DNA of 64,000 bases from Pirellulales bacterium (GTDB taxonomy: Bacteria; Planctomycetota; Planctomycetia; Pirellulales; Lacipirellulaceae), in contig JAKVCC010000004.1 of assembly GCA_022448265.1 (NCBI GenBank), positions 62,001 through 126,000 of the forward strand, written 5' to 3'. The position numbers and the translations under genes are program-made. The notes under the pieces were generated by a model, which was given only the letters and a program-made list of their open reading frames with translations, was not told the origin of the DNA and did no database searches. Shown one piece after another: positions 3,688 to 50,215 of this stretch. The stretch's first letter is position 1, and each line of letters starts with the position of its first letter.

Positions 3688-5817
3688 GTGAGCACCTCTT
3701 CCGATCCATCGCAAGCTTCCGAATCTCGCCCTGTCACCGGTGCGATTGACGAGGAGGCTGTTCTCCGGGCCAAACAAGAGATTCAAGGTCTGGTCCAGGA
3801 AGTCGTCGAACTGTCGCGTGCGGAGGTCGAGCCCAATGAGTTTTACGCAGCCCTTATAGATAAGGCAGTGTCCGCACTGGCGGCCATCGGTGGCGTTGTC
3901 TGGACAGTGGAGGAAGGTGCGGGATTCAAGCTCGAATACCAGGTCAACCTGCGCGAAACGGGTCTCGCAGAGAATGAAGCCGCGCAGCTCCAACACGGCC
4001 GACTTTTGCAACAGGTGATTGAGCGCGGCGAGCCCGCGCTGGTGCAGCCCCACTCAGGGGCAGGCGACGATGTCGAAGACCAAGCTGCCGCCAATCAGAC
4101 CGATTTTCTACTGGTCATCGCCCCTATCAAGAGCGACCGCGGTGTGGACGGTGTCGTCGAAATCTTTCAGCGGGCCGGGGCGAGACCGACAACGCAGCGC
4201 GGCTATCAGCGTTTTCTCGCGCAGATTTGTGAATTGGCGGGCGAGTACGTCAAGAATCGTCGTCTGCGGCACTTGACGACCAAACAGTCGTTGTGGGAGC
4301 AACTTGAGGCGTTCACGGGACTTGTTCACCAGGCGCTCAATTCTTCCGAAACGGCCTACACTATCGCCAACGAAGGCCGTCGTCTGATTGGCTGCGATCG
4401 CGTCACAGTCGTACTGCGCCGGGGAATGAAGTATCGGGTGGCCGCCATTAGTGGGCAGGAAACCTTTGACAAGCGTTCCAATGTTGTTCGTCTGCTCCGC
4501 AAACTGGCTACCACCGTAGCCCGTACGGGTGACGATTTGTGGTTCGATGGCGACACGGCCAATCTAGCCCCCCAGGTGGAAAAGGCGGTCAACGCCTATG
4601 TGGATGAATCACATACCAAGCACCTGGCCGTCCTGCCGCTGCGCGAGGCTGTGTCAGAGGAGGAAAAACCGGGCGAGCGAAAACGGCAGCAGCGCGAGAA
4701 TATTCTGGGCGCGATCATCCTCGAGCAACTCGTCGACAGCCGTCAGCCCGAAGGCATGTTGCAGCGCGTGGACGTTGTCCGTCGGCATAGCGCAACCTCA
4801 CTCACCAATGCGCAGGCCCACGAAAATCTGTTCCTGCTGCCGCTGTGGCGATTTCTCGGAAAGACACGAGTGCTGGTCACCGCCCGCAACCTGCCCAAGA
4901 CCTTGCTAGCACTTGTCGCCCTTGGTGGAGCCATTTCGGCCATGTGCTACATGCCTTACGATTTCAATGTAATTGCCGATGGCAAGTTGCTGCCCGAAGT
5001 GCGCCGCGACGTTTTTGCCTCAGCCGAGGGAAAAGTGATTGAGATTGCGGTAGAGCGGGGCACAAGAGTGAAGGCCGGCGAAGTCGTGGTCCGGCAGCAA
5101 AGCCTTGACCAGGAGGATCGTGAGACGGCGCTCGAAGGCAAATTTCAGGAAACGCTTAAGGAGATCGAATCGACGAGGTGGCAGCGGAAGCAGGTTGTTG
5201 CTGGAACCCAGGAAGAGGAACTCGACCGTGATCGCCTAGCGGGTCAACTCTCGCAACTCAAAGTGCGCCTGGAGAGTCTAAAAAAACAAAGAAAATTGCT
5301 GGATCGCAAAAAAGAGCAGCTGGTGGTCACCAGTCCCATTGATGGCATCGTGACCACTTGGAAGGTGCGTGATCTTCTGGAAGGCCGTACTGTGCGACAA
5401 GGCCAGCGTCTGATGGAAATTGCCGATCCGGCCAGCCGCTGGGAGTTAGCGATTGACGTGCCCGAAGCCAAAATGGGTCATATTGTCGCACAGTTAACGG
5501 CGCTGCGCGAAGAGGATCCGGCCTCGAAACTACAAGTCAACTTTTTCCTTGCGACCCATTCGGATGTTCGTTTGTCTGGTCGGGTCGAAGAGATCGATCG
5601 CAATGCAGAAGTGCGCGGGGAAAACGGCAATACGGTTCGCATGCGGGTGTCGTTTCGGCAGGAAGACTTGAAGAAGCTGGTCAATGATCCGTCTGTGGAG
5701 TTGAAAATTGGTGCCGACGTGAAGGCGAAGGTTTTCTGCGGCCGTCGCCCCATCGGCTATGTTTGGTTTAGCGATCTGTTTGAGTTTGTCCAATCGAGGA
5801 TCTTGTTCCGTTTTTGA
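3688..5817 (+). CDS. Tandem GAF domain-HlyD membrane fusion protein (module 1)
   Basis: A 709-residue protein from a GTG start, with an unusual architecture. Residues about 45-190 and 210-390 look like two GAF-type sensor domains; the second begins near the segment TAYTIANEGRRLIGCDRVTV. A single hydrophobic helix at about 402-425 follows, then a HlyD-type adaptor at about 430-709: lipoyl-like half (ASAEGKVIEIAVERGTRVKAGEVV), a coiled-coil hairpin rich in Lys, Glu and Gln, the second lipoyl half (VTSPIDGIVTTWKVRDL) and a beta-barrel. Topology is therefore cytosolic sensor, one membrane pass, periplasmic adaptor. First of three closely spaced genes (gap of 42 bases to the next). A paralogue of the same layout starts module 2 at 39414. 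GAF ligands and the conducting partner cannot be read from sequence. Confidence 0.85.
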   Translation: MSTSSDPSQASESRPVTGAIDEEAVLRAKQEIQGLVQEVVELSRAEVEPNEFYAALIDKAVSALAAIGGVVWTVEEGAGFKLEYQVNLRETGLAENEAAQLQHGRLLQQVIERGEPALVQPHSGAGDDVEDQAAANQTDFLLVIAPIKSDRGVDGVVEIFQRAGARPTTQRGYQRFLAQICELAGEYVKNRRLRHLTTKQSLWEQLEAFTGLVHQALNSSETAYTIANEGRRLIGCDRVTVVLRRGMKYRVAAISGQETFDKRSNVVRLLRKLATTVARTGDDLWFDGDTANLAPQVEKAVNAYVDESHTKHLAVLPLREAVSEEEKPGERKRQQRENILGAIILEQLVDSRQPEGMLQRVDVVRRHSATSLTNAQAHENLFLLPLWRFLGKTRVLVTARNLPKTLLALVALGGAISAMCYMPYDFNVIADGKLLPEVRRDVFASAEGKVIEIAVERGTRVKAGEVVVRQQSLDQEDRETALEGKFQETLKEIESTRWQRKQVVAGTQEEELDRDRLAGQLSQLKVRLESLKKQRKLLDRKKEQLVVTSPIDGIVTTWKVRDLLEGRTVRQGQRLMEIADPASRWELAIDVPEAKMGHIVAQLTALREEDPASKLQVNFFLATHSDVRLSGRVEEIDRNAEVRGENGNTVRMRVSFRQEDLKKLVNDPSVELKIGADVKAKVFCGRRPIGYVWFSDLFEFVQSRILFRF

Positions 5818-5859
5818 GGTGGTCCTCACCTCAGTGGGTGCCATCCCAGGAGGCGGCCC

Positions 5860-6933
5860 GTGCGTTTTCAGGAGACGATTTCCATGGCTAGAATCCAGTT
5901 CAAAACTTCATTCGGTGGCAAGGTCCGCAAGAATTGTGGCCCCAAGCAAGGTTTTGAAGCGGGTTCTCGTTATTGGCCATCCCGCTTGGCGGTCTATGGG
6001 TTGGCCTTGTGCGTTTTTGCGGTTGCCGCGCCGCTCGCGCTGGCGCAGAACGAACAAACGATTTTGTTGAAGTTGGGTAGGGTCAAGTTACGGGACGAGG
6101 TGCGGATTCCGGCATCCGAAGCGGGAGTGCTGATAACCTACTCCGTCCGAGAAGGTTCGCGGGTGTCGGAGGGGGATGTTCTGGCAGTGATCGATGATCG
6201 CGAGGCGCAGGCCAGACTGAAGATTGCCCAATACGCATTGGCAGCAGCGGCCAAACGGGCCCTGAATACGATCGAGGAAGAATTTGCCAGCAAATCAGCC
6301 GAGGTGGCAAAAGTGGATTGGGAGAAGGCGGTTAAGGCCAACCTCAGAAAAAAAGATGCGGTGCCCGAGATTGAGGTCATGCAAAAGTATTTGGCCTACC
6401 AGCGGGCCCGACTGCAAACTGAGAAGGCTCAAAAGGATCAGGAACTGGCTAAGCTGGATGCCCGCACAAAGAAGGCGGAGCTCGACGCTGCCCAATTGGC
6501 CATCGAATGGCGCACGATTCGTGCCCCCTTTGCCGGCGAAGTGGTGGCCAGCTATCACCAAGAAAAGGAATGGGTCAATCCGGGCGATCCTATTCTCAAG
6601 CTGGTTCGTTTTGACAAGCTCTACGTGGAAGACACTGTCGATTCCAAGGTTCACAATCGGGATGAGCTTGTCGGTTGTGACGTGGTGGTGGAGGTAACCC
6701 GTGCGCGCGGTAAAAAGATATCAGTTGCGGGTACGGTCGTGTATGTCGAACAGTCCATGCAACTTGATGGCGGCCTCAATGTGCGAGCCGAAGTCGAGAA
6801 CACAGTGGTAAATGACAGTTGGTTGATCCAGCCTGGCATGAGCGCCACGATGACACTCCACTTGGGAACCAACCGGCAGCGGGATGCGACGCCCTCGCCC
6901 CAGGCGGGCCTTACCCGGCGGCGTGGCAATTGA
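5860..6933 (+). CDS. HlyD-family periplasmic adaptor (module 1)
   Basis: A periplasmic membrane-fusion protein of 357 residues from GTG 5860, or 349 from ATG 5884. AGGAGG sits 6 nt before the GTG and AGGAG 9 nt before the ATG, so either start is possible. A hydrophobic segment ending PLALAQ, about residues 44-65, acts as signal peptide or anchor. The mature part shows lipoyl half 1 (IPASEAGVLITYSVREGSRV), a long Ala/Lys/Glu coiled-coil hairpin, lipoyl half 2 (IRAPFAGEVVASYHQEKEWV) and a beta-barrel ending with WLIQPGMSATMTL. It lies between the GAF-HlyD and M50-HlyD genes with gaps of 42 and 21 bases, indicating one operon. Family role: bridging an inner-membrane exporter to an outer-membrane channel. 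Confidence 0.87.
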   Translation: MRFQETISMARIQFKTSFGGKVRKNCGPKQGFEAGSRYWPSRLAVYGLALCVFAVAAPLALAQNEQTILLKLGRVKLRDEVRIPASEAGVLITYSVREGSRVSEGDVLAVIDDREAQARLKIAQYALAAAAKRALNTIEEEFASKSAEVAKVDWEKAVKANLRKKDAVPEIEVMQKYLAYQRARLQTEKAQKDQELAKLDARTKKAELDAAQLAIEWRTIRAPFAGEVVASYHQEKEWVNPGDPILKLVRFDKLYVEDTVDSKVHNRDELVGCDVVVEVTRARGKKISVAGTVVYVEQSMQLDGGLNVRAEVENTVVNDSWLIQPGMSATMTLHLGTNRQRDATPSPQAGLTRRRGN

Positions 6934-6954
6934 TCTCGCGACCACCGTTATTCT

Positions 6955-9201
6955 ATGCCAACGCTAGCTGACAGTATTGTTGCCAGTTCGTCGCGCAAAA
7001 TGGCGATTCGCGTGCGGCCCGATCTCCAATCGCGGCGGCAGCGTTACCAGGGGCGCGTATATTGGGTCGTTAAGGATCCCGTCGGACTCCAGTACTTTCG
7101 CTTCGAGGAAGAAGAGTTTGCCATTTTGCAAATGCTTGATGGCCAATCGAGCCTGGAAGATATCGCCGAGCAGTTTGAGGCCGAATTTCCCCCGCAAACA
7201 ATCCGTGTTGAAGAGTTGCAGAATTTCATTGGCATGCTGCATCGCAGTGGGCTGGTGCTGTCTGACGCGGCGGGCCAGGGTGTCGAGCTAAAAAAGCGGC
7301 ACGAAGAGCGCCGGCGCAAGGAATTGATCGGCTCGGTGAGCAACATCTTGTCGATTCGCTTCAAAGGATTTGATCCCGAGCGGATTCTTAACGCCCTTTA
7401 TCCCTGGGTGCGCTGGTTTTTTATGCCAATAGCGACTTGCTTGAGTTTGCTGCTGGTTCTCTCGGCGCTCATGCTGGTGATTGTGCAGTTTGATGTTTTT
7501 CAGTCGAAGCTGCCGTCTTTCCAATCATTTTTCGCTGCCCAGAACTGGCTCCTCATTGCAGCCGTATTGGGTGTTACCAAGATGATCCATGAGTTTGGTC
7601 ACGGTTTGTCGTGTAAGCATTTTGGAGGCGAATGTCATGAGATGGGGATCATGTTCCTGGTGCTGACGCCTTGCCTATACTGCAACGTGTCCGATTCCTG
7701 GATGCTGCCCAATCGTTGGCACCGGGCGGCGATCGGGGCAGCCGGCATGTATATTGAAGTTGTGCTGGCTTCACTAGCTACATTTCTCTGGTGGTTTAGC
7801 GAGCCAGGATTGCTCAACTATACATGTCTCAACATCATGTTCGTCAGTTCCGTCAGTACAATTTTGTTTAACGCGAATCCGCTGTTGCGCTACGACGGTT
7901 ATTATATTTTGAGCGACATCATGGAGGTGCCTAATCTACGGCAGAAAGCCAGTTCGATTCTCAATCGAAAGCTCGGTAAATGGTGTCTGGGACTGGAGGA
8001 ACCGGAGGATCCCTTCTTGCCCAAACGGAACCAAGGATTGTTTGCGGTTTATACCGTCGCATCGTTTTTTTATCGCTGGTTGATCCTGCTTTCAATTTTA
8101 GTTTTCTTGAATAAGATATTCGAACCCTATGGCCTCAAGGTCGTAGGTCAGATGATCGCATTGATGTCGCTTTATGGTTTGATCGTCATGCCGCTCAGTA
8201 AAGTGGCCAAGTTTTTTCGGGTACCGGGGAGGTGGAGTAAGGTGAAAAAGGTTCGCATGTTTGCATCGCTGGTTTTTCTGGGCGCGCTGGTAGGTGGCGC
8301 GTTTGCGATTCCGTTTCCATCGAGTGTTGTGTGTAGTTTTGAGCTATTGCCGCGTGGGGCGTCGTCGGTTTATGTGGAGGTTGCGGGCACGCTGGAAGAA
8401 ATTCTCGTTAAACCTGGCCAGCAGGTGGCCGCCAACCAGGTCCTGGCGCGAATACGGAGTATAGAACTGGAGCTGGAAATCGAAGCCTTGCGAGGCGATC
8501 GCGATGCCAGCCTGGAGGAGTTCAAGTCGCTGCAGCAGTTGCGCTCGCGTGACAACGATGCAACTTTACGACTTGAGATGGTTGGCGAAAGGCTTATCGC
8601 AATTGAAAAGCGATTGGCCCAAAAACTTCGTGATGCAAAGCGATTGGAAATTACCGCCCCGATTGCGGGCACGGTGATCCCGCCGCCGGAGCGGCAGGAA
8701 CGGCCGCGGGACCAGCAGCTGGAGTTGGCCAGTTGGACGGGCTCGACATTGGATGAAAAAAATGTTGGCGCCACTCTTATGGCGGACGGGGAACAAAACC
8801 TCTTCTGCCAGATTGGCGATCCGAATGCGTGGGACGCGGTGCTCGTCATTGGCCAGCGCGAGTTGGATTTGGTTGCGGAGGGACAAGAGGTGCGGATTAT
8901 GTTGGAGGAATCGGCGTATCACGTGTTCATGAGTACTATTGAGTACGTTGCCAACGACGAGTTGGAGATGCTCTCGCCCCGGTTGGCAAGTACCTCGGGC
9001 GGGCCCGTGCCGGCTCAGGCAGACCGCGACGGCACGATGCGCCCTTTGTCTACCTCGTACCAGGCTGTCGCGTATCTCGAGGGTGAAGTGGGCCTGTTTC
9101 GAAATGGCCTCACCGGCAGGGCTCGCATTATGACCGAACCGCGCACCCTAGCCCGTCGCATTGGTCGCTATCTGGGGCGGACGTTCAACTTAGATATGTA
9201 G
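6955..9201 (+). CDS. PqqD-like/peptidase M50/HlyD fusion protein (module 1)
   Basis: A 748-residue polytopic protein. Residues about 20-100 resemble PqqD-type leader-binding domains (VYWVVKDPVGLQYFRFEEEE, then a winged-helix-like segment to HRSGLVL). A membrane core of about seven helices follows, with the site-2-protease zinc motif HEFGH at 212-216 and the second motif NPLLRYDGYY at 308-317, whose Asp314 is the expected third ligand. The conserved HEMGI and PCLYCNVSDSW segments lie between. After the last helix (about 435-460) come two lipoyl halves of a HlyD domain around a coiled coil, ending at 748. Annotated homologues are often called putative peptide zinc metalloproteases. It closes the operon. 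Cleavage of a substrate, export, or both are possible; none is proven. Confidence 0.85.
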   Translation: MPTLADSIVASSSRKMAIRVRPDLQSRRQRYQGRVYWVVKDPVGLQYFRFEEEEFAILQMLDGQSSLEDIAEQFEAEFPPQTIRVEELQNFIGMLHRSGLVLSDAAGQGVELKKRHEERRRKELIGSVSNILSIRFKGFDPERILNALYPWVRWFFMPIATCLSLLLVLSALMLVIVQFDVFQSKLPSFQSFFAAQNWLLIAAVLGVTKMIHEFGHGLSCKHFGGECHEMGIMFLVLTPCLYCNVSDSWMLPNRWHRAAIGAAGMYIEVVLASLATFLWWFSEPGLLNYTCLNIMFVSSVSTILFNANPLLRYDGYYILSDIMEVPNLRQKASSILNRKLGKWCLGLEEPEDPFLPKRNQGLFAVYTVASFFYRWLILLSILVFLNKIFEPYGLKVVGQMIALMSLYGLIVMPLSKVAKFFRVPGRWSKVKKVRMFASLVFLGALVGGAFAIPFPSSVVCSFELLPRGASSVYVEVAGTLEEILVKPGQQVAANQVLARIRSIELELEIEALRGDRDASLEEFKSLQQLRSRDNDATLRLEMVGERLIAIEKRLAQKLRDAKRLEITAPIAGTVIPPPERQERPRDQQLELASWTGSTLDEKNVGATLMADGEQNLFCQIGDPNAWDAVLVIGQRELDLVAEGQEVRIMLEESAYHVFMSTIEYVANDELEMLSPRLASTSGGPVPAQADRDGTMRPLSTSYQAVAYLEGEVGLFRNGLTGRARIMTEPRTLARRIGRYLGRTFNLDM

Positions 9202-9429
9202 ATTCGCGGAGTGACGCTGCTTTTTGTTGCGTTATGGCAGATTTGGCCCTCGGCACCGATGTCCGGTTAAATCTATTCAGAGTTGATCTGCGATCCTGTC
9301 AGTAGTTGCTCTCAATCACCACTGCTAGCACTCGTTCAACGGACTCGATCTGGTCCGAAGCTGCGAACCTTCGTAGGATGTCTGTCTTGATTGCGACTCT
9401 CGAGGGCCTCGATCGCGGTGAGTGCGGCT

Positions 9430-12400
9430 ATGGCGAAGAAGAAGCGCGCGCAGCGCATCAATGGCGAAGGTGCATCGGCCGCGCCGCGTCGGTGGAAGAG
9501 AAAAATCGGCCGCCGATTGTTCCTGCTAGTGTTGCTCGCGGTGGGCGTGGTGGCAGTCGCCCCTGCGATCGTGGCCCGCACCTCGCTGCGCAATCAACTG
9601 CTTGGCGTGGCGCTATCTGCGCCCGGGTGGCGCATTGAAAGCCAGGGGGCAAATCTAGGTTGGTCTGGAAAACAGTCGCTGACGGGCGTAACACTGGTCG
9701 ACCCGGCAGGCCAGTCTTTGTTGACAGCAGAGTCGATTAGTTGTGATCGATCGCTACTAGGACTCGCCGCCAATTGGAGGGACCTGGGTAAGGTCCGCAT
9801 CGCCAGACCAACTGCTTACATCGTAACGCGTCCTGGCGGCAGCAATGTCGAAGACCTGTTGGCGACCATGGAGACTAGCGGCGGGGATCCTGAAAATAAG
9901 CAGCTTCCGCGCGAAGAGAAAAACGGCTTCTCTGTGCAGGTCGAAGTTATTGAAGGCACAGTCCATGGCGTCGATTCCACGACCCAGGGGGCGTGGTTGC
10001 TGACCGAGGCCAATCTTGTCGCACATCTGGATACACCCTCCCATGGCGCGCTCGATATCACCGGCAGCGTCAACTTGGCCACCGCCCGCGAAGGGACCGC
10101 AGGCAATGCAAAATTTCAGTTTCAATCGAGGGCGGCCACCGGACACCAACTTGACCTGTTCCTGAAAGGGTTTCCGCTCGAGCCGCTGGAACCGTGGTTG
10201 GTCCGCGCGCTGCCTGGTGCACAATTGAAGGGCCGCCTGACGATCGACGCACCGCAGATCCGCTGGACGTCGGATCCACAGCGTGGGCTGCAGGTGCATA
10301 CGGCCGGCCGTATGGAAATCCAGCAGTTGGAATTTTCCGCCGACGCGATTCTAAGAGAGCGAGTGGTCCTCCAACATTTGCAGGCTCCTTGGCGGCTGAT
10401 GGTGGCCAACAATACGATTGCCGTCGAGCAACTGTCGCTGGACGCTGGTTGGAGCAATTTTTCCGCACGAGGTTCCCTCACATTCGACGAACTATTTGCC
10501 CTGTGTGAGAAACAATTGCCGCAAAGCCAATGGACTCTGGCGGGCGAAGTTGCGCTGGACCAATTGACCAAGATGTTGCCGCGCACCCTGAAATTGCGCG
10601 AGGGAGTGCGCATCGACCGCGGGGTGCTCTCGCTAGAATTGGACAGCCAGCGGGCGGAGAATGGATTTGCTTGGAGTGCGACCGCTTCGCTACGCGATGT
10701 CGCAGGAAGCAATCGGGGACGGGTCATTCGCTGGCAGCAGCCGATAGAAACAGCATTGGCGCTGGTCGACTCCCCGCAAGGTGCGCACATCGAACAATGG
10801 TCGCTGACAGCACCCTTTGCGGAGGCCCAGTTCGCGACCGGCCGCGAGGAGGTTTCAGGAAACTTCCAGATCGATCTGGATCAGTTCAGCCAAGATCTGG
10901 GGCAATTCATTCAGCTGAAACCGTGGCACTTGGGCGGTAGCGGCTCGGGCCAGCTGTCATTCTTGCGTCCGGCGGTCGGGGAATTTTCTGCACATGCCGA
11001 CCTAGAGCTGCAAGACCTTCAGGTGATCCACAAGGAAAAAAAACTTTGGTCTGACCCCAAGCTGCAAGTTGTCGTGCGGGCCGCCGGTACTGGAGCCGAT
11101 CTGGAATTCCACCAATTGAGCACCGCGACCATCAAGGTGCGTGGCAAGGATGATGCGTTCGACCTGCAGCTCTTGCAGCCGGTGAATCTCGCTGAGGCGA
11201 GGCCCAGTTGGTTGGTAAAAGTTGAGGGCAAAGGCCCCTTGGCCCCGGGGGTAGATTGGTTGCGACCCTGGTTGCCCAATATTGCGCTGGAGCTGGCCGG
11301 CGAGGCCAATGTCCAGGCCAAGTTGCGACTCGCTGCCGATGCGGTACACGTTATCGAGTCGCAGGGTAGTGTCGTGGGCCTCAGGGTTCGCAGCAGGGCG
11401 TTCGAGATTGATGAACCAAATTTTCATTTTTCCGGCGATTGCCGGTGGGATGCCACGGCCGACAGCCTAGAGTCAAAAGAGTTGCAGATGATCGGCAGTG
11501 CACTTGCATTTCGCGCAAGGGATTTGGGTTTCAGCATGCTCAGTGCTGGCATACCGGCTGCCAAGGGCCAGGTTGCATTTCGCGCCAATCTTGAGCGGAT
11601 GGCGGCAGCAGCTCGTTTGGTCAGCGGCGATTCCTCGACCTGGCTACGTGGTACGGTTGAGGGACAATTACAGTTGGCCCCTGGCGATGGAGCACTGCAG
11701 GCCGTATTTTCGGCGACTGCCGCCGAGCTGCAGCTATTGCGAGCCGACGCCTCGAGTACCGCCCCGGAAGTCCTTTGGACCGATCCGCAATTGCAGGTTT
11801 CGGGCAAGGCCATCTATGCGATTGCTGACGACCGTGCGCGGGTCGAAAAACTTGAATTTCGCGGACAGACATTGCAGCTAACCAGCGCGGCAACGATCGA
11901 GCAGATGTGCACGCTGCCGCGGCTCCAGGCCAATGGGCAGTTGCAATACGATGCCCAGGAGTTGGCCACACTACTGACAACCTATCTGGGTTCCAACGTC
12001 CGGCTGGTAGGGAATCGCCACATGCGTTTCCAAATCGCTGGTCTGCTCTCGGAAGTTGACCCACAGGGCGCGCCGCTCGATTGGTTGCAGCGCTGGCAAA
12101 TGTCGGCTGACGCAGGGTGGCTGTCAGCGTCAGTTTACGGATTGCCTGTTGGGGCAGGAAAGCTCGAGGGAACTTTCCAGCAGGGCCAGCTTCAATTTGC
12201 CCCACTTGAAGTGGCCGTGGGAAATGGCTGGTTGACCGCTCACCCGCTTCTCACTTTTGGACACAGATCACAGCAACTGCAGCTATCTGCCGGTCCCCTG
12301 CTACGCCGCGTGCAGATTTTGCCTCAGGTGAGCCAGGCCATGCTTAAATACATTGCGCCGGTGGTGGCAAATGCAACGCATACCGAAGGGGAGTTCTCCG

Positions 12401-12951
12401 TACATTTGGCCGATTCTCGGGTGCCCCTGGCGAATCCCCAGGAGGCCCAGGTGGCCGGCCAGTTGGCGGTCCATCGCCTGAGCGTGGCACCGGGACCAAT
12501 GCTGCAAGAACTGGCAACAGCTGTTGAGCGACTCAAAACACTTTCAAATTCTAAACAGCTTTTTTCGGCGGTGACCGCGACGCGCTCGGTGAAGGGTTTG
12601 ACGATCAACGATCGCAATATCGACTTTCAAGTGGTTCAAGGTCGTGTTTACCATCGCAACTTGGAGTTTATTATCGACGACGTGCCCATCCGCTCGCAAG
12701 GTTCGGTTGGCTTTGACCAAAGCCTAGCACTGGTGTTTGAGATACCCATTCAAGAGAAATGGTTAGGGAAGTATTCTCGCTCCTTGGCGGGGCAAACTTT
12801 GCGCATACCTGTCAACGGCTCGCTGGACCAATGGGATTTTGATTTGCGGGCAGTGGCCGACTTGTCGCAGCGGTTGGTGAAAGATGCCGCGTCCCAGGCA
12901 ATCGGCGATGAAGTCAATCGCCAGATCGAAAAACTGTTTCGGTCCCGCTAG
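9430..12951 (+). CDS. AsmA/TamB-like large envelope protein
   Basis: A protein of about 1173 residues from ATG 9430 (MAKKKRAQRI); an in-frame TTG at 9391 is less likely. A basic N-terminus and one hydrophobic helix (LFLLVLLAVGVVAVAPAIVA) anchor it in the inner membrane, and the rest is periplasmic. The long body of repeated beta-strands with LxIxxxxVxL patterns, and an ending with DVPIRSQGSVGFDQSLALVF then DFDLRAVADL, are typical of the C-terminal region of AsmA-like proteins. Relatives form hydrophobic grooves that move lipid or outer-membrane protein across the periplasm. It follows export module 1 on the same strand after 228 bases, a suggestive but unproven link. No enzymatic motif is visible. 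Confidence 0.65.
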   Translation: MAKKKRAQRINGEGASAAPRRWKRKIGRRLFLLVLLAVGVVAVAPAIVARTSLRNQLLGVALSAPGWRIESQGANLGWSGKQSLTGVTLVDPAGQSLLTAESISCDRSLLGLAANWRDLGKVRIARPTAYIVTRPGGSNVEDLLATMETSGGDPENKQLPREEKNGFSVQVEVIEGTVHGVDSTTQGAWLLTEANLVAHLDTPSHGALDITGSVNLATAREGTAGNAKFQFQSRAATGHQLDLFLKGFPLEPLEPWLVRALPGAQLKGRLTIDAPQIRWTSDPQRGLQVHTAGRMEIQQLEFSADAILRERVVLQHLQAPWRLMVANNTIAVEQLSLDAGWSNFSARGSLTFDELFALCEKQLPQSQWTLAGEVALDQLTKMLPRTLKLREGVRIDRGVLSLELDSQRAENGFAWSATASLRDVAGSNRGRVIRWQQPIETALALVDSPQGAHIEQWSLTAPFAEAQFATGREEVSGNFQIDLDQFSQDLGQFIQLKPWHLGGSGSGQLSFLRPAVGEFSAHADLELQDLQVIHKEKKLWSDPKLQVVVRAAGTGADLEFHQLSTATIKVRGKDDAFDLQLLQPVNLAEARPSWLVKVEGKGPLAPGVDWLRPWLPNIALELAGEANVQAKLRLAADAVHVIESQGSVVGLRVRSRAFEIDEPNFHFSGDCRWDATADSLESKELQMIGSALAFRARDLGFSMLSAGIPAAKGQVAFRANLERMAAAARLVSGDSSTWLRGTVEGQLQLAPGDGALQAVFSATAAELQLLRADASSTAPEVLWTDPQLQVSGKAIYAIADDRARVEKLEFRGQTLQLTSAATIEQMCTLPRLQANGQLQYDAQELATLLTTYLGSNVRLVGNRHMRFQIAGLLSEVDPQGAPLDWLQRWQMSADAGWLSASVYGLPVGAGKLEGTFQQGQLQFAPLEVAVGNGWLTAHPLLTFGHRSQQLQLSAGPLLRRVQILPQVSQAMLKYIAPVVANATHTEGEFSVHLADSRVPLANPQEAQVAGQLAVHRLSVAPGPMLQELATAVERLKTLSNSKQLFSAVTATRSVKGLTINDRNIDFQVVQGRVYHRNLEFIIDDVPIRSQGSVGFDQSLALVFEIPIQEKWLGKYSRSLAGQTLRIPVNGSLDQWDFDLRAVADLSQRLVKDAASQAIGDEVNRQIEKLFRSR

Positions 12952-36971: not shown

Positions 36972-39206
36972 TTACTCGGCAAGTGGTTCCGATGAGGTAG
37001 GTGTCGAAAGGGCGTGCTCGGTCCACTGAACACCTTGGGGCTGAATCGCTTCCGTGCCCAGCATGGCAACTTCGAACAGTGCCACCGATGTGTCCGGCCC
37101 GTCTCCCGCATTATCATGTGCAGGCGCCTGGGGCGTAATATCTGTTTCTGAATGCATCAACGAGTCCTTGGGAGAAGGCTCCGCGCTGTTGGCACCCAGA
37201 TCGACGGGTGTGAGTATTTCCAGTCTCTCCGCTGGCGGAAGCCCTTCGTTGGTAAGCTGCTCGTAGGTGCCACAGCTTACTTGCGGTGCATGGGCGGAGG
37301 AGTAGTTCAATCGTTTTGGCCGCCCTCGACGGCTCTCCAGTTGGGCGGCGTCCTGGTGGGCTTGGCAGGGCCAGGCACCTTCGCTCAGAAATACGCCGTC
37401 GTAGTCGAGCAGCGTCCCCTTAGCGAAATGCACATTTTTCACGGCAATCGCATACTCGGCCAAAGCCCGAAAATGGCGGCTGTCTGCGTCGGCCAAGCGG
37501 CGCTGCCCATCGAGGAGCAAATCGAGAGGTGCTTTGTCTGCTTCAAAGGCTGCTTCAACTGCGGCCAACTGTTGTCTGGCAGCATCCAAGCGATTGAAAC
37601 TGGTTTGCGAAACCTGATAGGCTCGATCCATCTCAGCTACGGCATCAGCGACTTCATGCAGTACATGATGTTCTTGCTCACGAAGTATGGCGCGGGCACG
37701 CGTCAACTGCATTTTTGCATGCCGATTTGCCGCAAAGGCGCGGCGATAGCCAATCGGGACATTTAGCTCCAGGCCGAGCTGCCATTCCTGGAAGTCGCCA
37801 CTAGTGAGGTCTTCGTAAGCATTGTCAAAGCGGGGATTGTTGCTGCTGTTGTCCAGCAAACTGCGTCCGAAGCCGCGCCAGCGGTAACGGCCCACCGCAT
37901 CGAGACTTGGCAAGAGATGATTTTTGCTGGCAATCAATTCCAACTCGCGCCGCCGCGTTTCAAATCGTTGCCGGCGGAGTTCCACGCGGCGCAGCACGGC
38001 TTCACGCGTTACCTCGCACCAGTCGAATTTTATCGGTGCGGCAAGCGGTTGGTCGGTGGGACGCAGTAAACGCCCGTCGCTGGGGGGCAATCCGATGATC
38101 CTGCGCAAACGGCGTTCTGTCACATGGACCCCACCAGCACCTCGGAACGTACCGCCACTGCTGCCATTTCCGGTACGCGTTCCGTCAACGAGTCGGCCAC
38201 TCAGGGCGTTTTGGACTTCTTCTTGGAAGCGGAAAAACTGTTCGCGGGCTTGCGCCTCTTTTTCCGCTTCGCCGCCGCGGCGACCGGCTTCGAACAAAGC
38301 ATGAACGCGGCGCCAGGTGTCAAGAGCCGCATTCCGCGCGGTAATTTTGGCATCGAGGTCGCGATAGGCGTAGTACAAATCCCAATAGGAGTTTTCTATG
38401 TTGCTAACGAGGTCGCAGACTGCCAGCTCAAAGTCAGCCAGTCCCACGTCGGTATTGACGCGGGCGATCAACACACCCCCGTACACGCCAGGGGTTTCAC
38501 TCGGACCCGCAATACGGTTGAAGAGCATGCCGCTGCCCTGCAGCAGCGGATGGCGAAACTCGGATTCGATATTGACATTCCACGCGCTGGGAAACTGATT
38601 GCTTGGCGCGTTGTTAGCGTCGTATTCTAGGTTGTGACGCAGCATGAATTCCGAGCCGGTGACGGCGCGCTTGGCAAATTGTGTTTGCGACACGAAGGCA
38701 TCTTGCTGCAGGATGCGTGTACCTCCACCGAAAAACTCATTGTTCAGTGCCTTGTCGTTCTTTTCGCCAAAGACACTTGTGGAGAACTGTGCGTCAAAAG
38801 CGCTGAGCGCCGCTTCAATGCCAAAACGAGGATCCGTTTCTTGCAAGGCAGGATTCCAAAAAGTTTGCGTCGATGAGGGATTGCGCAATACGGCCCCGCC
38901 CAGATCCCGTAGTACCTTGGACTGGGCCAGCGCGAGTTGGACTACCTGCTCCAGAGGTACGTCCCAGTACTCGGGGTCGCTGGTGCTCGTGAGGGTCAGT
39001 GGTTCCGCTGCAGCCCATTCGTCGCAGGTTGCTGAGCATTGGCTCACTTGGGGATATTCGATTTCCGAGGCTTGTGTGTGATAACAGTCGTCGCTTGTGC
39101 AAGCTCGAAAGACTCCTTTGCCGCGCGAACGACATCCGACGCTCATCGCCATGGCTAGGCAAACCAGCGAACCAACCAACAGATTGCGGAGTTGCAAGTG
39201 CTGCAT
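36972..39206 (-). CDS. TolC-family outer-membrane efflux lipoprotein
   Basis: A 744-residue protein, long for the family (usually 430-500). It has a lipoprotein signal with MAMSVGC ending at Cys25. The helical barrel regions are recognisable: ENSYWDLYYAYRDLDAKITA, then ARNAALDTWRRVHALFEAGR in the first repeat and LELNVPIGYRRAFAANRHAK then MQLTRARAILREQEHHVLHE in the second. The last 130 residues are polar and acidic, outside the barrel. It forms the outer-membrane channel of a tripartite exporter by family knowledge. It diverges from the GAF-HlyD gene of module 2 across a 207-base gap and is the only TolC-like gene in the window. Confidence 0.87.
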   Translation of the reverse strand: MQHLQLRNLLVGSLVCLAMAMSVGCRSRGKGVFRACTSDDCYHTQASEIEYPQVSQCSATCDEWAAAEPLTLTSTSDPEYWDVPLEQVVQLALAQSKVLRDLGGAVLRNPSSTQTFWNPALQETDPRFGIEAALSAFDAQFSTSVFGEKNDKALNNEFFGGGTRILQQDAFVSQTQFAKRAVTGSEFMLRHNLEYDANNAPSNQFPSAWNVNIESEFRHPLLQGSGMLFNRIAGPSETPGVYGGVLIARVNTDVGLADFELAVCDLVSNIENSYWDLYYAYRDLDAKITARNAALDTWRRVHALFEAGRRGGEAEKEAQAREQFFRFQEEVQNALSGRLVDGTRTGNGSSGGTFRGAGGVHVTERRLRRIIGLPPSDGRLLRPTDQPLAAPIKFDWCEVTREAVLRRVELRRQRFETRRRELELIASKNHLLPSLDAVGRYRWRGFGRSLLDNSSNNPRFDNAYEDLTSGDFQEWQLGLELNVPIGYRRAFAANRHAKMQLTRARAILREQEHHVLHEVADAVAEMDRAYQVSQTSFNRLDAARQQLAAVEAAFEADKAPLDLLLDGQRRLADADSRHFRALAEYAIAVKNVHFAKGTLLDYDGVFLSEGAWPCQAHQDAAQLESRRGRPKRLNYSSAHAPQVSCGTYEQLTNEGLPPAERLEILTPVDLGANSAEPSPKDSLMHSETDITPQAPAHDNAGDGPDTSVALFEVAMLGTEAIQPQGVQWTEHALSTPTSSEPLAE

Positions 39207-39413
39207 GGGCCCATAATGGGTGAGCTAAAGAGGGTAATCTAAAAATGGTTTTCGTCGCGGAATGACCCCTACAACCAGTTTTTCCCTAAAATTTGGTAGA
39301 GATTGCGCAGTTTGCCAGGTCGTCGTTGGCGACCAGTTAGTTTTCGCATTTTTTAGGTCAAGCCTTTGCATGCGTGCGGCCTGACGGAACTGCTTGGATA
39401 TACTGAAACTGTT

Positions 39414-41498: not shown

Positions 41499-41550
41499 GG
41501 ATTGCCGCGCAGGTGTTTCGAGGCCAAGTTATTTTGGGAGTTAGCAGGTT

Positions 41551-42423: not shown

Positions 42424-42583
42424 TGATTGCCTATTATTCTACGGGGATTGCCCTTGTCGGCTTCGGTGCCGGGGAGTGAGCTACTGGTCTCTTGGCTGAA
42501 AACGGTACCCTCCGCCTGCAGGTGAAGTTCGGAACACGCGGCAGTAATTTTAGTTGAAAAAAAGTTAGCCTTGCGGCACCAAC

Positions 42584-45111: not shown

Positions 45112-46044
45112 TTACGGTAGAAGCAGAATTAATCCCGCGATTGCCCCGACTTCGACCATGCTTGCCCCAAGCTGGATGGGCCACCGATGCGGTCGCCGCG
45201 GATTGCAGCTTCCTGGGCGATAGTGGCCCAAGGTGTACACGCAGTCGCATGGACAATCGACTGCCATTTTGTAGGGCAGGGCGGGAATCGTGGCAAAGAA
45301 TCGACCGGCTGAGACCAAAGGTTGCAGGAGGTAGCTGGGTGTGTAGCCGTAACGTTCGGCATTCACTTCTTCGAAGTACAGGGGCCGATGACGCATGCAC
45401 GTGGCTGCCCAGCGATATTCGGTGACCGCCCAGCCACCAGCGATCCGCATGTCGCCTGCGGTAAGGGTTTGTTCAGCGCACCTGGCGTAGGCGCTCTCGG
45501 GCAATTTTCCGGCAGGGAACGAGATGCTCGCCTGTATCTCCGAAATGGATGGCGCGATGTAACACGAAACGGCTTGTTGTTCATCATCAGAATTTTTTTC
45601 AGTTTTTTTATCCGCCGGCTGGTCGTCAGGTTCGGGCAAGTTGTTTTGTTGCGCGACTCGGAATCCGTCTACATCATTCAACGAGAGGAAACCCGAGCGT
45701 TCGACAGTCCCCGGTGCAAGCTGCGCCTGAGAGCGTGTCACTGAGGACGACATTCGGTAATTTTGGGATACAGTAACTCTGCTGGGTAGGAGAATCAGTG
45801 TGCCGTTTGCCTTGGCGTTGGCTTCGGCGAGGTGGGTCGGTTGCACGAGGCAAGCCCTCGCCCCGTCAGCGTGCTGCGGCTGCTCGCAACCGACAGTTGG
45901 GCCGTTGGGCTGGGCACCGAAAAGTGAGCAGCAGGCAGTGGTCGACCACACGACTGTGGTGGCCGTAGCCAACCACAGACCGCGTTGCCAGAGTCTTGCC
46001 AGACGATTTTTGCAGCGGGGGTAGGCAGGGGCCAAGCATTGCAT
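45112..46044 (-). CDS. Secreted hypothetical protein of a planctomycete-conserved type
   Basis: About 310 residues from ATG 46044 (MQCLAPAYPRC); the frame stays open to 46269, but the upstream part lacks a usable N-terminus. A signal sequence at about 15-45 (LWLATATTVVWSTTACC) may be a lipoprotein lipobox. The C-terminal half has the segments RHRPLYFEEVNAERYGY, LQPLVSAGRFFATIPALPYK and MAVDCPCDCVYTLGHYRPGS, which I recall as a repeated signature in planctomycete genomes, followed by a final hydrophobic stretch. The function is unknown. It is divergent from the PKD protein gene and might share a promoter region with it. Confidence 0.65.
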   Translation of the reverse strand: MQCLAPAYPRCKNRLARLWQRGLWLATATTVVWSTTACCSLFGAQPNGPTVGCEQPQHADGARACLVQPTHLAEANAKANGTLILLPSRVTVSQNYRMSSSVTRSQAQLAPGTVERSGFLSLNDVDGFRVAQQNNLPEPDDQPADKKTEKNSDDEQQAVSCYIAPSISEIQASISFPAGKLPESAYARCAEQTLTAGDMRIAGGWAVTEYRWAATCMRHRPLYFEEVNAERYGYTPSYLLQPLVSAGRFFATIPALPYKMAVDCPCDCVYTLGHYRPGSCNPRRPHRWPIQLGASMVEVGAIAGLILLLP

Positions 46045-46157
46045 CGGATCGCGCTCACGATATGGGTTGGATGCCAGTCGATGGTGGGGAGCTATCGCTA
46101 GCAGCCAATTTCGGCCTCCTACAATCGTATCCTCGATAAAATTCGTTGTGGCCCGTA

Positions 46158-46172
46158 CGATCCATGGGATCG
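46158..46172. promoter_or_regulatory. Inverted repeat between divergent genes, possible operator
   Basis: CGATCC-ATG-GGATCG, six-base arms around a 3-base centre, followed by a TATATT element at 46174-46179 that could be a -10 box. It lies between the start of the secreted protein (leftward) and the PKD protein (rightward). Short and unsupported by a second copy, so tentative. Confidence 0.25.
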
Positions 46173-46336
46173 CTATATTCGGAAAGGTTCTACAAAACTT
46201 GCAGTTCTGGCGGCTAAACCACGCCCTCCTGCCGAATTTGGGCAGTGCGTCCCGCCCGACATTCGCCAATCGTTAAGGCTTCATTTATTTGACAAGTTTG
46301 TAGTTTTCTCCGGATAATCGAAGGAGGTGCGCTAAC

Positions 46337-49300
46337 TTGTTTCTGATCGGTTGCCTCTTCATGGGACTCTTCACCTTACTTGCCCGCTGCCGGGTGCCCA
46401 TAGGGCGTGGTCGGCATGCCCTGCAGCTAGAAGCAGCACCGTTGGCACCCCGTCGCCTGGAAAGGCGGCGTGTCCTGGACGCATCTGTGGCCCAATTGTT
46501 TCTGGGCTCGCTTCCCGAGTCAGGGCCATTTGTGCAGACAGGTGAGTTCACCAATCATCAGGCCGATCCATCACCGCCACTAGCGGTGACCAGCACGGCG
46601 ACCAGCACGTCGACTTCATTGGTGATTCCCAACTCACCACCCATAATTTCGGGAATTTATACTTTTCCAGATAGTACGGACAAAAACGACGCGCCGGTGG
46701 ATGTGCTGATATTGTTTGGTGACTTGGACGCCCAAGACACGCACATGATCGACATCGATTGGGGCGACGGCTCGCCGGTGGAGTCCATCACTGTCGATTT
46801 TCAAAAGCGCTTTCTTTTCACTCCGCACCAGTATTTGAACGACAACCCGACCGGAACACCTGTCGACACCCACGATATCCAAGTGACTGTTCGCGACCAA
46901 CGGGGCGGTATGGCCATGGGGAGCGCGCCGGTCACGGTGAGTAATGTGGCACCAAAGATCGATGCGATTTTCATCACCTCCCCTGTCGACGAAGATGGTG
47001 TCGCTTTTTTGGAGATGTCTTTTACCAATCCAGGCTCGTTGGACATGCACACGGTCGAAATCGACTGGGGTGACGGAACGCCGACCGAAACGATTACGCT
47101 CGCCGTTGGCGAACGCACCTTGGATGCGTCACACCGATATCTGAATGACGAACCCACTGGCACTTTCAGCGACACCTACCAGGTGACTCTCAAACTCGTT
47201 GATGATGACGCAGGCATGGACTCGGCGATGCTTGCGGTAACTGTTAACAATGTGGCGCCCTCCAATATCCAGATCGCGCCAGTGGCAATGATTGACGAGA
47301 ACGGGACAGCGCAGCTTCAGCTAACGTTTGCCGACCCAGGTACGCTGGATAGCCACTGGATCGATATTGATTGGGGTGACGGCACCTCGGTGGAAACCAT
47401 CTCGCTGATTCCGGGAGCCCGCTCACTGGCTGCTACGCACCAGTATTTGGACGACAACCCAACCGGAACGCTTACCGACACCTATCAGGTGGCCGTAACG
47501 GTGACCGATGACGACACGGGGATGTCGATGGTCACCGCGCCGATCGTTGTAAATAACGTGATGCCGACGATAACCATCGATGGTGAGCCAGCCACAAGTT
47601 CCGAAGGAACGGCCATTAGCCTTGCCAGTACCGTTGTCGATCCAGGCTCGCTGGATACGTTTGCTTATGCTTGGGTAGTTAGTGCTGGCGGCAATATTGT
47701 TGCCACGGGTTCCGGTCCGACCTTTAGCTTCACGCCTGCCGACAATGGTGGCCACGAAGTAACCTTGACCGTGACGGACGACGATGGCGGCATTGGCAGC
47801 AAAATGGTCTCGATTAACGTCCTGAACGTGGACCCCACGTTGGGTGCCATTGCTGACATTGTGACTGACGAAGGCACGTTTATCTCACTGCCTCCGGCCA
47901 CATTCACCGATCCCGGCTTCGACCTAGTCGCCGCCGGTACTGAAGAAAACTTTACCGGCACTATCGACTGGGGCGACGGGACCACTGAGCCGCTAGCCGA
48001 TATTACGCTGACTGAAGTCCCCGGCAGCGAAGGGGTGAACGTGGACCCCACGTTGGGTGCCATTGCTGACATTGTGACTGACGAAGGCACGTTTATCTCA
48101 CTGCCTCCGGCCACATTCACCGATCCCGGCTTCGACCTAGTCGCCGCCGGTACTGAAGAAAACTTTACCGGCACTATCGACTGGGGCGACGGGACCACTG
48201 AGCCGCTAGCCGATATTACGCTGACTGAAGTCCCCGGCAGCGAAGGGGTGCTTACCACCGGGACGATCAGCGCGATGCACGCCTACGCCGATGACGGGGT
48301 ATACACGGCCACCGTCACGGTTATGGACGATGACGGGGGCACGGCGTCCCAGTCATTCGGGGTGACGGTCAACAACGTTGTTCCGGTGCTCACCGGTGAG
48401 GACGCCTCACTCAACCTGGATGAAGGTGATCAATTTACGCTCTTTGACCTTGGCATTGGCCTGAGCGACCCTGGCTTCGACAACGGGCTGAATCCAATTC
48501 CCGGCGGCGAACTTGAAGAGATATTTGTGGGCGTCTCGATCGATTGGGGTGATGGTTCGGCGGCGATTCCCGTGAATGTGGTCGATCGTGTGAGCGGCAG
48601 CGAGGGCGTGCCGACTACGGCCATGTTTGAACACGCAGTTCATGCTTATGCCGACAACGGCATTTATTTGGTCACCATAGAGTTTTCGGATGACGATGGC
48701 GGATTTACCACAGGTACATTCGAGATTGTTGTCCACAACGTTGCCCCATCACTCACGCTTACAGATCGCGCGCTGGAGATTAACGAAGGCGAGACACTCG
48801 TACTTGCCGATCTGGGTGTATTCAGCGATCCTGGTTACAACAACCCGCTTAACCCAAACTTGCCTCCGGCGGGCTCGCTCGAGAGTTTCTCGTACGATGT
48901 CGATTGGGGCGATGGTACGCCGGTCGAAACAGGTGTTCTGCCGGCGACGGGCACGGACGGTTCGCAGGGTGTGCTGACAACGGGCACTTTGGCAGACAGC
49001 CATTTTTATGCAGACAATGACCCGGACAATCTATTCACGATAACCGTTTCGCTTTACGACGACGACGGGGGCAGCACCCAACAAACAATTGTTGTTACCG
49101 TGTTGAACGTAAACCCCACGCTTGATCCGATTGTCGCGACCGACGTTGGATCAGAAGGAAAAACCACCCTTGACCTGACATTTTCTGATCCGGGCGCCGA
49201 TGTTTTTGAGATCATGGTCGACTGGGGCGACAAGCTGAGCTTGGCTCCGGAAGATCGGTTTGTCGTCGAAACGGTTCACGTGGGACCTACGCCAACAAGT

Positions 49301-50215
49301 TATACCTTAGTCCATTGGTATTCGGGCCCGCCCGATCCGACCAGCCCTGCTGCTGATATTGTCATCACGGTCAAGATACTGGACGACGATTTTGGTACCG
49401 CGGGGGTCAGTGACATCGGTCTGAGCAATCTGGAATTGGTGGCGATTTCCAATGCGGGGATCGGAGCGACTCCAATTCGCATCGACACCACGCCGCAGGT
49501 ACCGCGACTAGTGTTCCCGCGACGTGCCGAGAGTACGATCCTGTTGAACACATCGACGAGCGGGCAAGGCTCGGTGCAAGGCGCGGACCTGCGCAGTGCG
49601 TCCGGCGAGACCAAAGCCACCAACGAGCGATTCTTGGAGCTGCAGGTCATTAGCGCAACGGGAGAATATGGCGAGCGAATTCGCCTGAAGCCGGAGGTGC
49701 TCAAAGACCTACCCGGATTGTTTCGTCGTCTGGCCGATAACCACTATGCAATTTTCTTGGTCCGCACTGAGACCAATACCCGCCGCTTGGTATTCGATTT
49801 TTTCGTGCGTAATGGAAGAGCCATTGATCCGGGCGACGATTCAGAGGGAACCCGTGACCGGCCCCCGACCGACGAGGCTGCCGAGCAAGTCGCGCCTGAG
49901 GCAGCACCGGTGGTACCGGGTGGCGAAGCGGATCTTAACGAGGATCAGGACGAGCCAGCTGTTGGCCCCCTGGTTTCGCCTCCAGGCGACGCGGCCGATC
50001 TGGGGGCAATTTCCCGAGGGCCCCCACACGCTCCCTGGCCCGCGATTCAAGCAAGGTCGCAGGGCTGGACTGTCGCAGCGACAGCGCTGGTGGCGAGCCG
50101 CGCCTGCCGAGATTGGGCGCAGCGCGTGGATCGCGCGGTAGCAGCCGCTGGGGCGCGGCGGTGGCGCCGGCTCCGCAGCCATCCCCATCTTCCTTACAAA
50201 CGAAAAAACCCGTAA
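46337..50215 (+). CDS. Large PKD-repeat surface protein
   Basis: A 1292-residue secreted protein. TTG 46337 is set as start by AAGGAGG at 46321-46327. The N-terminus carries LERRRVLDAS at 41-50, a variant of the LEPR-type motif at the start of many giant planctomycete secreted proteins. About eight PKD-like beta domains follow, each with a DWGDGT strand, a VDDDxG turn and a NNVxP linker (e.g. IDWGDGTSVETIS, VTVTDDDTG). A 71-residue segment is repeated perfectly (497-567 and 568-638). The C-terminus has a hydrophobic helix (GWTVAATALVAS) and an Arg-rich tail, perhaps an anchor or sorting signal. Adhesion or matrix role is inferred. It lies downstream of export module 2. Confidence 0.82.
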   Translation: MFLIGCLFMGLFTLLARCRVPIGRGRHALQLEAAPLAPRRLERRRVLDASVAQLFLGSLPESGPFVQTGEFTNHQADPSPPLAVTSTATSTSTSLVIPNSPPIISGIYTFPDSTDKNDAPVDVLILFGDLDAQDTHMIDIDWGDGSPVESITVDFQKRFLFTPHQYLNDNPTGTPVDTHDIQVTVRDQRGGMAMGSAPVTVSNVAPKIDAIFITSPVDEDGVAFLEMSFTNPGSLDMHTVEIDWGDGTPTETITLAVGERTLDASHRYLNDEPTGTFSDTYQVTLKLVDDDAGMDSAMLAVTVNNVAPSNIQIAPVAMIDENGTAQLQLTFADPGTLDSHWIDIDWGDGTSVETISLIPGARSLAATHQYLDDNPTGTLTDTYQVAVTVTDDDTGMSMVTAPIVVNNVMPTITIDGEPATSSEGTAISLASTVVDPGSLDTFAYAWVVSAGGNIVATGSGPTFSFTPADNGGHEVTLTVTDDDGGIGSKMVSINVLNVDPTLGAIADIVTDEGTFISLPPATFTDPGFDLVAAGTEENFTGTIDWGDGTTEPLADITLTEVPGSEGVNVDPTLGAIADIVTDEGTFISLPPATFTDPGFDLVAAGTEENFTGTIDWGDGTTEPLADITLTEVPGSEGVLTTGTISAMHAYADDGVYTATVTVMDDDGGTASQSFGVTVNNVVPVLTGEDASLNLDEGDQFTLFDLGIGLSDPGFDNGLNPIPGGELEEIFVGVSIDWGDGSAAIPVNVVDRVSGSEGVPTTAMFEHAVHAYADNGIYLVTIEFSDDDGGFTTGTFEIVVHNVAPSLTLTDRALEINEGETLVLADLGVFSDPGYNNPLNPNLPPAGSLESFSYDVDWGDGTPVETGVLPATGTDGSQGVLTTGTLADSHFYADNDPDNLFTITVSLYDDDGGSTQQTIVVTVLNVNPTLDPIVATDVGSEGKTTLDLTFSDPGADVFEIMVDWGDKLSLAPEDRFVVETVHVGPTPTSYTLVHWYSGPPDPTSPAADIVITVKILDDDFGTAGVSDIGLSNLELVAISNAGIGATPIRIDTTPQVPRLVFPRRAESTILLNTSTSGQGSVQGADLRSASGETKATNERFLELQVISATGEYGERIRLKPEVLKDLPGLFRRLADNHYAIFLVRTETNTRRLVFDFFVRNGRAIDPGDDSEGTRDRPPTDEAAEQVAPEAAPVVPGGEADLNEDQDEPAVGPLVSPPGDAADLGAISRGPPHAPWPAIQARSQGWTVAATALVASRACRDWAQRVDRAVAAAGARRWRRLRSHPHLPYKRKNP
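47823..48250 (+). repeat. Perfect 213-bp tandem duplication inside the PKD gene
   Basis: Two adjacent copies with a 213-base period (47823-48035 and 48036-48248); identity extends two bases further to 48250. No difference was seen by eye. 213 is a multiple of three, so the frame is kept. The first copy encodes only the front part of a PKD domain, so the duplication inserts a truncated domain. Confidence 0.9.

Follow-up and report, generated by a model that had tools for sequence, protein, structure and literature searches.

The gene at positions 6955-9201 of the window, by which we mean the whole stretch of 64,000 nucleotides that was analysed, encodes a fusion of an RRE (PqqD-like) domain, an M50 peptidase and a HlyD-type adaptor. 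We consider it fairly likely that this protein is the inner-membrane part of a TolC-type exporter, operating without an ABC transporter on giant or large surface proteins, with the RRE reading their leader and the M50 core cleaving it. This reading is drawn from the invariant active site, the RRE fold, the gene partnership, the leader motif of the giant proteins and the co-occurrence across the phylum. A wider proposal is advanced more tentatively: the system may be a distinct, ABC-independent form of Gram-negative secretion, in which the RRE-protease-adaptor protein reads a non-Sec LExRxLL leader and the motor that moves the chain through the adaptors and TolC is a truncated SecA. Giant surface proteins of planctomycetes bear an export tag that was known as early as 2004 but lacked a machine, and the SecA/HlyD/M50 module, known from 2015, lacked a cargo. 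Our evidence pairs the two, and it appears to be the cargo, the LExRxLL giants matched to the module of 2015, that is new. Coordinates are collected in Table 1.

Table 1. Features of the two operons, the candidate cargo and related loci. Positions are those of the window, except in the last row, where each is preceded by its locus.
Feature	Position	Strand	Basis
GAF-HlyD adaptor, operon 1, 709 aa	3688..5817	+	Pfam GAF, HlyD_3, HlyD_D23
Short HlyD/RND-type periplasmic adaptor, operon 1, 357 aa	5860..6933	+	Pfam HlyD_3, TIGR01730
RRE(PqqD-like)-M50-HlyD fusion, 748 aa	6955..9201	+	ATG start; ORF check and domain scans
RRE/PqqD-like domain, residues 25-103	7027..7263	+	AlphaFold pLDDT about 90 there; structural matches to leader-binding RREs
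HEFGH zinc/catalytic motif, residues 212-216	7588..7602	+	H212, E213, H216 invariant 40/40
LRYDGYY, third zinc-ligand motif (D314), residues 311-317	7885..7905	+	D314 invariant 40/40
HlyD/MacA-like adaptor domain, residues 453-731	8311..9147	+	Foldseek matches MacA, MexA, AcrA, best E 6e-13
TolC-type outer-membrane efflux protein, 744 aa, divergent from operon 2	36972..39206	-	Pfam OEP, E 1e-20
GAF-HlyD adaptor, operon 2, 710 aa	39366..41498	+	HlyD_3, E 9e-11; weak GAF
Short HlyD adaptor, operon 2, 290 aa	41551..42423	+	TIGR01730 over cut-off
Second RRE-M50-HlyD fusion, 726 aa	42584..44764	+	Pfam/NCBIfam, alignment
Small conserved protein between second fusion and giant gene	45112..46269	-	Homologues in L080, L083, L085, L086, L136
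Candidate cargo, 1292-aa PKD-repeat protein with LExRxLL-type leader	46337..50215	+	TTG start behind AAGGAGGTG
Leader motif LERRRVL of candidate cargo	46457..46477	+	Pattern and position
Truncated SecA-like proteins, annotated otherwise in part	L087:10087-12045, L088:11020-13044, L098:14168-16084, L147:14006-16093		

The preliminary description had read a PqqD-like N-terminus and a HlyD C-terminus from the letters, and both hold up. Pfam placed Peptidase_M50 on residues 202-279 above the cut-off (E 2e-7), HlyD_D23 on residues 470-575 slightly under it (E 2.5e-6) and PqqD on residues 56-101 under the gathering cut-off (E 7e-4). The NCBIfam model of the daptide RRE-protease, NF041824, matches residues 32-420 with E 6e-56, at 190 bits for this protein and 155 for the second copy, both short of the 300 bits that the curated model requires. 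A profile of 40 homologues of the fusion, searched against the PDB sequences, matched PqqD (3g2b) at residues 31-101, the RRE TfuB1 (6jx3) at residues 15-99, the archaeal site-2 protease MJ0392 (3b4r) at residues 197-228 and MacA/HlyD adaptors.

The AlphaFold model of residues 1-125 (pLDDT 86) has the winged-helix topology of an RRE, with three strands and three helices, and is PqqD-like. The closest folds are those of TbiB1-leader complexes (lasso-peptide RREs), PqqD, TigE and TfuB1, all at a Foldseek probability of 1.00, with VIA Z of 7.3-9.2 and an rmsd of 2.5-3.0 Å over 83-87 residues. The fold suggests that the RRE may bind a leader peptide. In the full-length model (pLDDT 81) the C-terminal part matches MacA-type adaptors. 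HlyD-type adaptors were the only folds among the Foldseek matches listed for the full model, so the identity of the M50 part is taken from Pfam and the short match to a PDB sequence. Seven hydrophobic segments were found in the fusion, with the HlyD part after the last of them, an arrangement that would agree with an RRE in the cytosol and a HlyD domain in the periplasm.

The M50 core was claimed to be intact in its HExxH and second motif, and this is so. HEFGH and LRYDGYY together make up the HExxH and the distant DG motif, in a membrane-embedded core, by which an M50 site-2 protease is recognised, and Glu213, singled out earlier for mutation, is correctly numbered as the glutamate of HEFGH. 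Across the 40 homologues compared, which come from Planctomycetota and Proteobacteria, all four residues (H212, E213, H216 and D314) are unchanged (40/40). The M50 core therefore probably cleaves the leader, as far as can be judged from conserved residues. The homology to MpaP, a leader peptidase, counts in the same direction.

A different task for the M50 part within giant LExRxLL export would be mainly that of a pore or scaffold replacing the ABC transporter, with cleavage incidental or absent, along the lines of Kamneva et al. This is consistent with the lack of an ABC transporter both in the loci described here and in PMC4452313, where the M50 protein is proposed as the pore. However, HExxH and the distant Asp would be dispensable in a scaffold, yet the four residues are invariant across phyla, and the nearest relative, MpaP, is a peptidase. 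We therefore regard a mere pore or scaffold as rather unlikely and retain leader cleavage as part of the proposed export.

Both fusions are encoded by the third gene of an operon with the order GAF-HlyD, short HlyD, RRE-M50-HlyD (3688-9201 and 39366-44764). The second fusion, whose presence at 42584 had been pointed out before, is indeed there and is 33% identical to the first, with HELAH and LRYDG at the corresponding positions; its PqqD part is undetected by Pfam, yet aligns across the entire domain. A GAF-HlyD homologue adjoins the fusion in most relatives, and a TolC-type gene is found at L080 and L085 in the same position as in the window. An ABC transporter was neither found among the neighbouring window genes scanned nor annotated in the operons of the relatives, and no RND or MFS pump was seen in the operons. 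Immediately 3' of operon 1 lies a gene (9391-12951, + strand) for an AsmA/DUF748-like protein of 1186 aa, and an ORF of similar size follows in L036. The TolC gene of operon 2 is adjoined by one for an AMP-binding ligase with a carrier-protein domain (34757-36934, + strand; DIP2/FAAL-like).

The genome of the window encodes a 647-aa SecA on another contig (C8). Its alignment to solved SecA stops at about residue 605, an end point that we take to mean that the wing and the two-helix finger are missing. The wing-scaffold region is missing from the secondary SecA_DEAD of the module described in PMC4452313 as well. Of the 10 alphaproteobacterial loci examined, 7 have a truncated SecA; SecA-like proteins of about 640-695 aa are encoded there by operon genes whose annotation reads SecA, prepilin peptidase or DEAD/DEAH helicase. 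The co-occurrence sample comprised 196 Planctomycetota genomes, 46 fusion-positive (E < 1e-30) and 150 fusion-negative. A short SecA is present in 29 of the 46 and was not found in the other 17, and there is no clear case among the 150 (p 5e-23, a value which, like those below, overstates independence as the genomes share descent). Three ambiguous frames in fusion-negative genomes, short or at contig edges, were counted here as fragments of the housekeeping gene. In 16 genomes, which contribute 20 cases, the distance between the short SecA and the fusion is at most 6 kb. Judged from this pattern of genes, the truncated SecA is a component of the fusion system.

M50 proteases take part in regulated proteolysis. 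The substrate of the fusion might thus be a regulator anchored in the membrane; the GAF protein would act as the sensor, and the adaptors would serve only for positioning. Sensing is a known role of GAF domains, and PMC4452313 interprets their occurrence in the module as regulatory. The constant TolC, the two further adaptors and the translocation ATPase nevertheless point to transport, and the loci showed neither an anti-sigma factor nor a regulator that is conserved, which makes a regulatory protease improbable.

A candidate cargo of the proposed exporter is encoded downstream of operon 2. Its N-terminus contains APRRLERRRVLDAS; neither NF012209 nor PF07595 matched the protein at E 1, and the leader was assigned to it solely from pattern and position. 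The protein begins with a hydrophobic stretch, MFLIGCLFMGLFTLLAR, and could therefore enter by Sec; the LExR proteins of L126 and L127 may begin in the same way. The small protein encoded between the second fusion and this gene has no Pfam match but a conserved C-terminus (PLYFEE..ERYG..., YTLG.YRPG), and on its other side the candidate cargo gene is adjoined by one for a Ser/Thr kinase fused to many WD40 repeats (50366-55279, + strand). No LExRxLL giant is adjacent to operon 1, so that its cargo would have to be LExRxLL proteins encoded elsewhere in the genome. At least six such proteins are encoded outside the window.

The order of fusion, small gene and large LExRx(V)L protein is preserved in operon-2-type loci of Planctomycetota. 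In seven of them (L077, L080, L083, L085, L086, L136 and the window) the LExRx(V)L protein is located 1.1-1.6 kb downstream of the fusion, and the small gene was detected in all of these except L077. At the operon-1-type loci L126 and L127, an LExR protein of 1,171-1,177 aa is encoded 0.7-0.8 kb from the fusion with a DUF3467 gene adjacent. Among 379 flanking ORFs of at least 300 aa, the motif occurs within residues 1-150 in 17, against 4 for residues 151-300. The DUF3467 protein recurs (L090:7651-7947, L126:6672-7010, L127:7074-7430, L134:10338-10703) and is found once in the genome of the window (C9:37524-37778); it is possibly a chaperone or targeting factor.

The leader also follows the fusion at the scale of genomes. 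LEPR-XLL (NF012209, E 0.02) was matched in 16 of the 46 fusion-positive genomes, leaving 30 without a match, and in 1 of the 150 fusion-negative ones (p 1e-10); it occurs in 0/14 control genomes. Counted by family, which corrects in part for shared descent, the figures are 10/23 and 0/46 (p 3e-6). PF07595 (Planc_extracel), the model specific to the planctomycete version of the signal, is too insensitive at its strict cut-off, with matches in 5/196 genomes. At a lax E of 0.02 its association is weak (12/46 fusion-positive versus 14/150 negative, p 0.006), and many of the ORFs matched are small and resemble chance matches. Exceptions are G132, with a clear LEPR-XLL, and G139, with a clear PF07595, both fusion-negative.

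Homologues of the fusion in Proteobacteria, sampled from plasmid records only, have TolC and another two adaptors as neighbours, together with very large genes (10-49 kb). The leader motif (I/L)E(P/S/A)Rx(L/M/V)(L/F/Y) is present on the large protein in all 12 loci with a readable N-terminus (Pseudosulfitobacter, Alisedimentitalea, Thalassospira, Azospirillum, E. coli, Variovorax, Burkholderia, Methylosinus, Mesorhizobium, Ensifer, Cupriavidus and Tistrella), counting Tistrella, where the large protein is in the same locus as the fusion without being directly adjacent, and Alisedimentitalea, where the motif was found upstream of the annotated start. In shuffled N-termini the pattern occurs at 0.1-2.5% per sequence. 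These leaders are mostly basic, or neutral, and have no Sec-like hydrophobic core, in contrast to most of the short HlyD partners tested, which have signal peptides.

The 48.7 kb giant gene of Variovorax (L102, CP063167.1:19413-68132) encodes about 16,239 residues behind the leader MALEARYMFDAAA. At L092 (NZ_CP123586.1, near record position 183224) the annotated start of a 24-kb gene lies downstream of the LEPR leader, so that the annotation misses the export tag. E. coli plasmids (L095) carry a mostly plasmid-borne form without SecA, consisting of the giant, TolC, two adaptors and M50-HlyD; among 5426 complete E. coli genomes, 24 contain the L095-type M50-HlyD gene. DUF4347 alone was considered as a cargo tag and rejected, because the DUF4347 protein of Phaeobacter plasmids lacks the leader motif and has no fusion next to it; L143:13986-19163 is such a contrast case.

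The preliminary description had placed the fusion in a RiPP setting. The neighbours speak against it. A RiPP exporter-protease would read and trim a small modified peptide and hand it to the adaptor, and the homology to MpaP and to the LiaK/YydH maturation proteases, as well as an RRE fold near those of lasso and sactipeptide systems, would suit such a role. Scans with Pfam and NCBIfam, however, revealed no RiPP modifying enzymes, daptide modifying enzymes or daptide precursor among the window genes scanned, no modifying enzymes are annotated beside the proteobacterial homologues, and what recurs next to the fusion is giant proteins, TolC, adaptors and SecA. With no modifying enzyme among the window genes scanned and giant proteins constantly present, a RiPP cluster was rejected, and a RiPP exporter is very improbable. 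The absence of these enzymes together with the recurring giants makes it likely that the "leader" is the front end of a giant protein and not a small peptide. The earlier idea stands as regards the RRE fold and the principle that a leader is read, in which binding itself is presumed; the neighbouring genes move it from RiPP maturation to protein secretion. Efflux of small molecules by a tripartite pump, with an M50 core unrelated to the neighbouring giants, is likewise very improbable: in structure, the HlyD part best matches drug-efflux adaptors such as MacA, MexA and AcrA, but the operons contain no RND, MFS or ABC pump, and the adjacent giants have one common leader motif that co-occurs with the fusion across the phylum.

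In the export of giant proteins that we propose, the cytosolic RRE would recognise the N-terminal leader of a new protein, a basic stretch followed by LExRx(L/V/M)(L/F/Y). The SecA-like motor, without wing and two-helix finger, would feed the chain to the membrane, with housekeeping SecA acting where the short one is missing. The leader would be cut by the M50 core at or within the membrane, and a periplasmic ring of the fusion's HlyD domain, GAF-HlyD and short HlyD would pass the chain into TolC and outward. We infer leader binding, cleavage, the direction of transport, the conduit through the membrane (the M50 core, SecYEG or another) and the use of energy by the exporter. The PqqD-like domain would thereby gain a concrete role in the module. 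If this is true, Gram-negative bacteria have an added secretion route for proteins of about 1,000 to 16,000 residues, whose recognition step was borrowed from peptide natural-product biosynthesis.

The closest known system is the module of a secondary SecA_DEAD, HlyD, Peptidase_M50 and GAF proteins without an ABC transporter, described by Kamneva, Poudel and Ward (2015, PMC4452313) from Planctomycetes, Proteobacteria and others, sometimes with OEP. Its cargo was left unnamed and its broader role "completely unknown"; PqqD and giant proteins are absent from the main text of that paper; the operon META1p2402-2399 of Methylobacterium extorquens AM1 is one that it names. The truncated SecA, M50-HlyD, GAF-HlyD and HlyD/biotin_lipoyl proteins and the lack of an ABC transporter are the same here. 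Both window operons encode the latter three proteins, and the wing-less SecA_DEAD protein is encoded elsewhere in the genome, on another contig, just as partner genes of the module may be (PMC4452313). To this description we add an RRE, an active site that is conserved, and LExRxLL proteins as candidate cargo. MpaP of the daptides is an RRE-dependent intramembrane M50 leader peptidase (PMC10036551). Its model (MpaP/DapP, NF041824) resembles the fusion in joining an RRE to an M50 peptidase, with homology over residues 32-420, but ends before the HlyD tail and gives 190 of the 300 bits at its cut-off. Furthermore, MpaP acts on small peptides and has adjacent modifying enzymes that are missing here.

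For R. baltica, the motif RRLxxExLExRxLLA was put forward as a signal for export; it is found on 8 of the 10 longest proteins of T. immobilis (PMC8567305). The candidate cargo has the same leader motif as this PF07595/LEPR-XLL signal, for which a machine is proposed here; none has been assigned to it in the literature searched, mostly open-access papers. A paper joining the module, the leader and the RRE peptidase was not found in a search that was thin on subscription papers and preprints. Type I secretion (HlyB-HlyD-TolC) is similar in its HlyD-family adaptors, TolC-type channel and large surface cargo. It differs in that no ABC transporter was seen here, the signal is N-terminal whereas theirs is C-terminal, and a SecA-like ATPase and a protease are proposed to take part. 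Finally, the accessory Sec system of Gram-positive bacteria dedicates a second SecA (SecA2) to large surface adhesins. SecA2 is mentioned in PMC4452313, and a second SecA for large surface proteins is the feature shared with the exporter proposed here. None of the loci was seen to contain a second SecY. The proposed exporter differs from accessory Sec in belonging to Gram-negative bacteria, in its adaptors, TolC and RRE-M50 protein, and in a short SecA without wing and two-helix finger.
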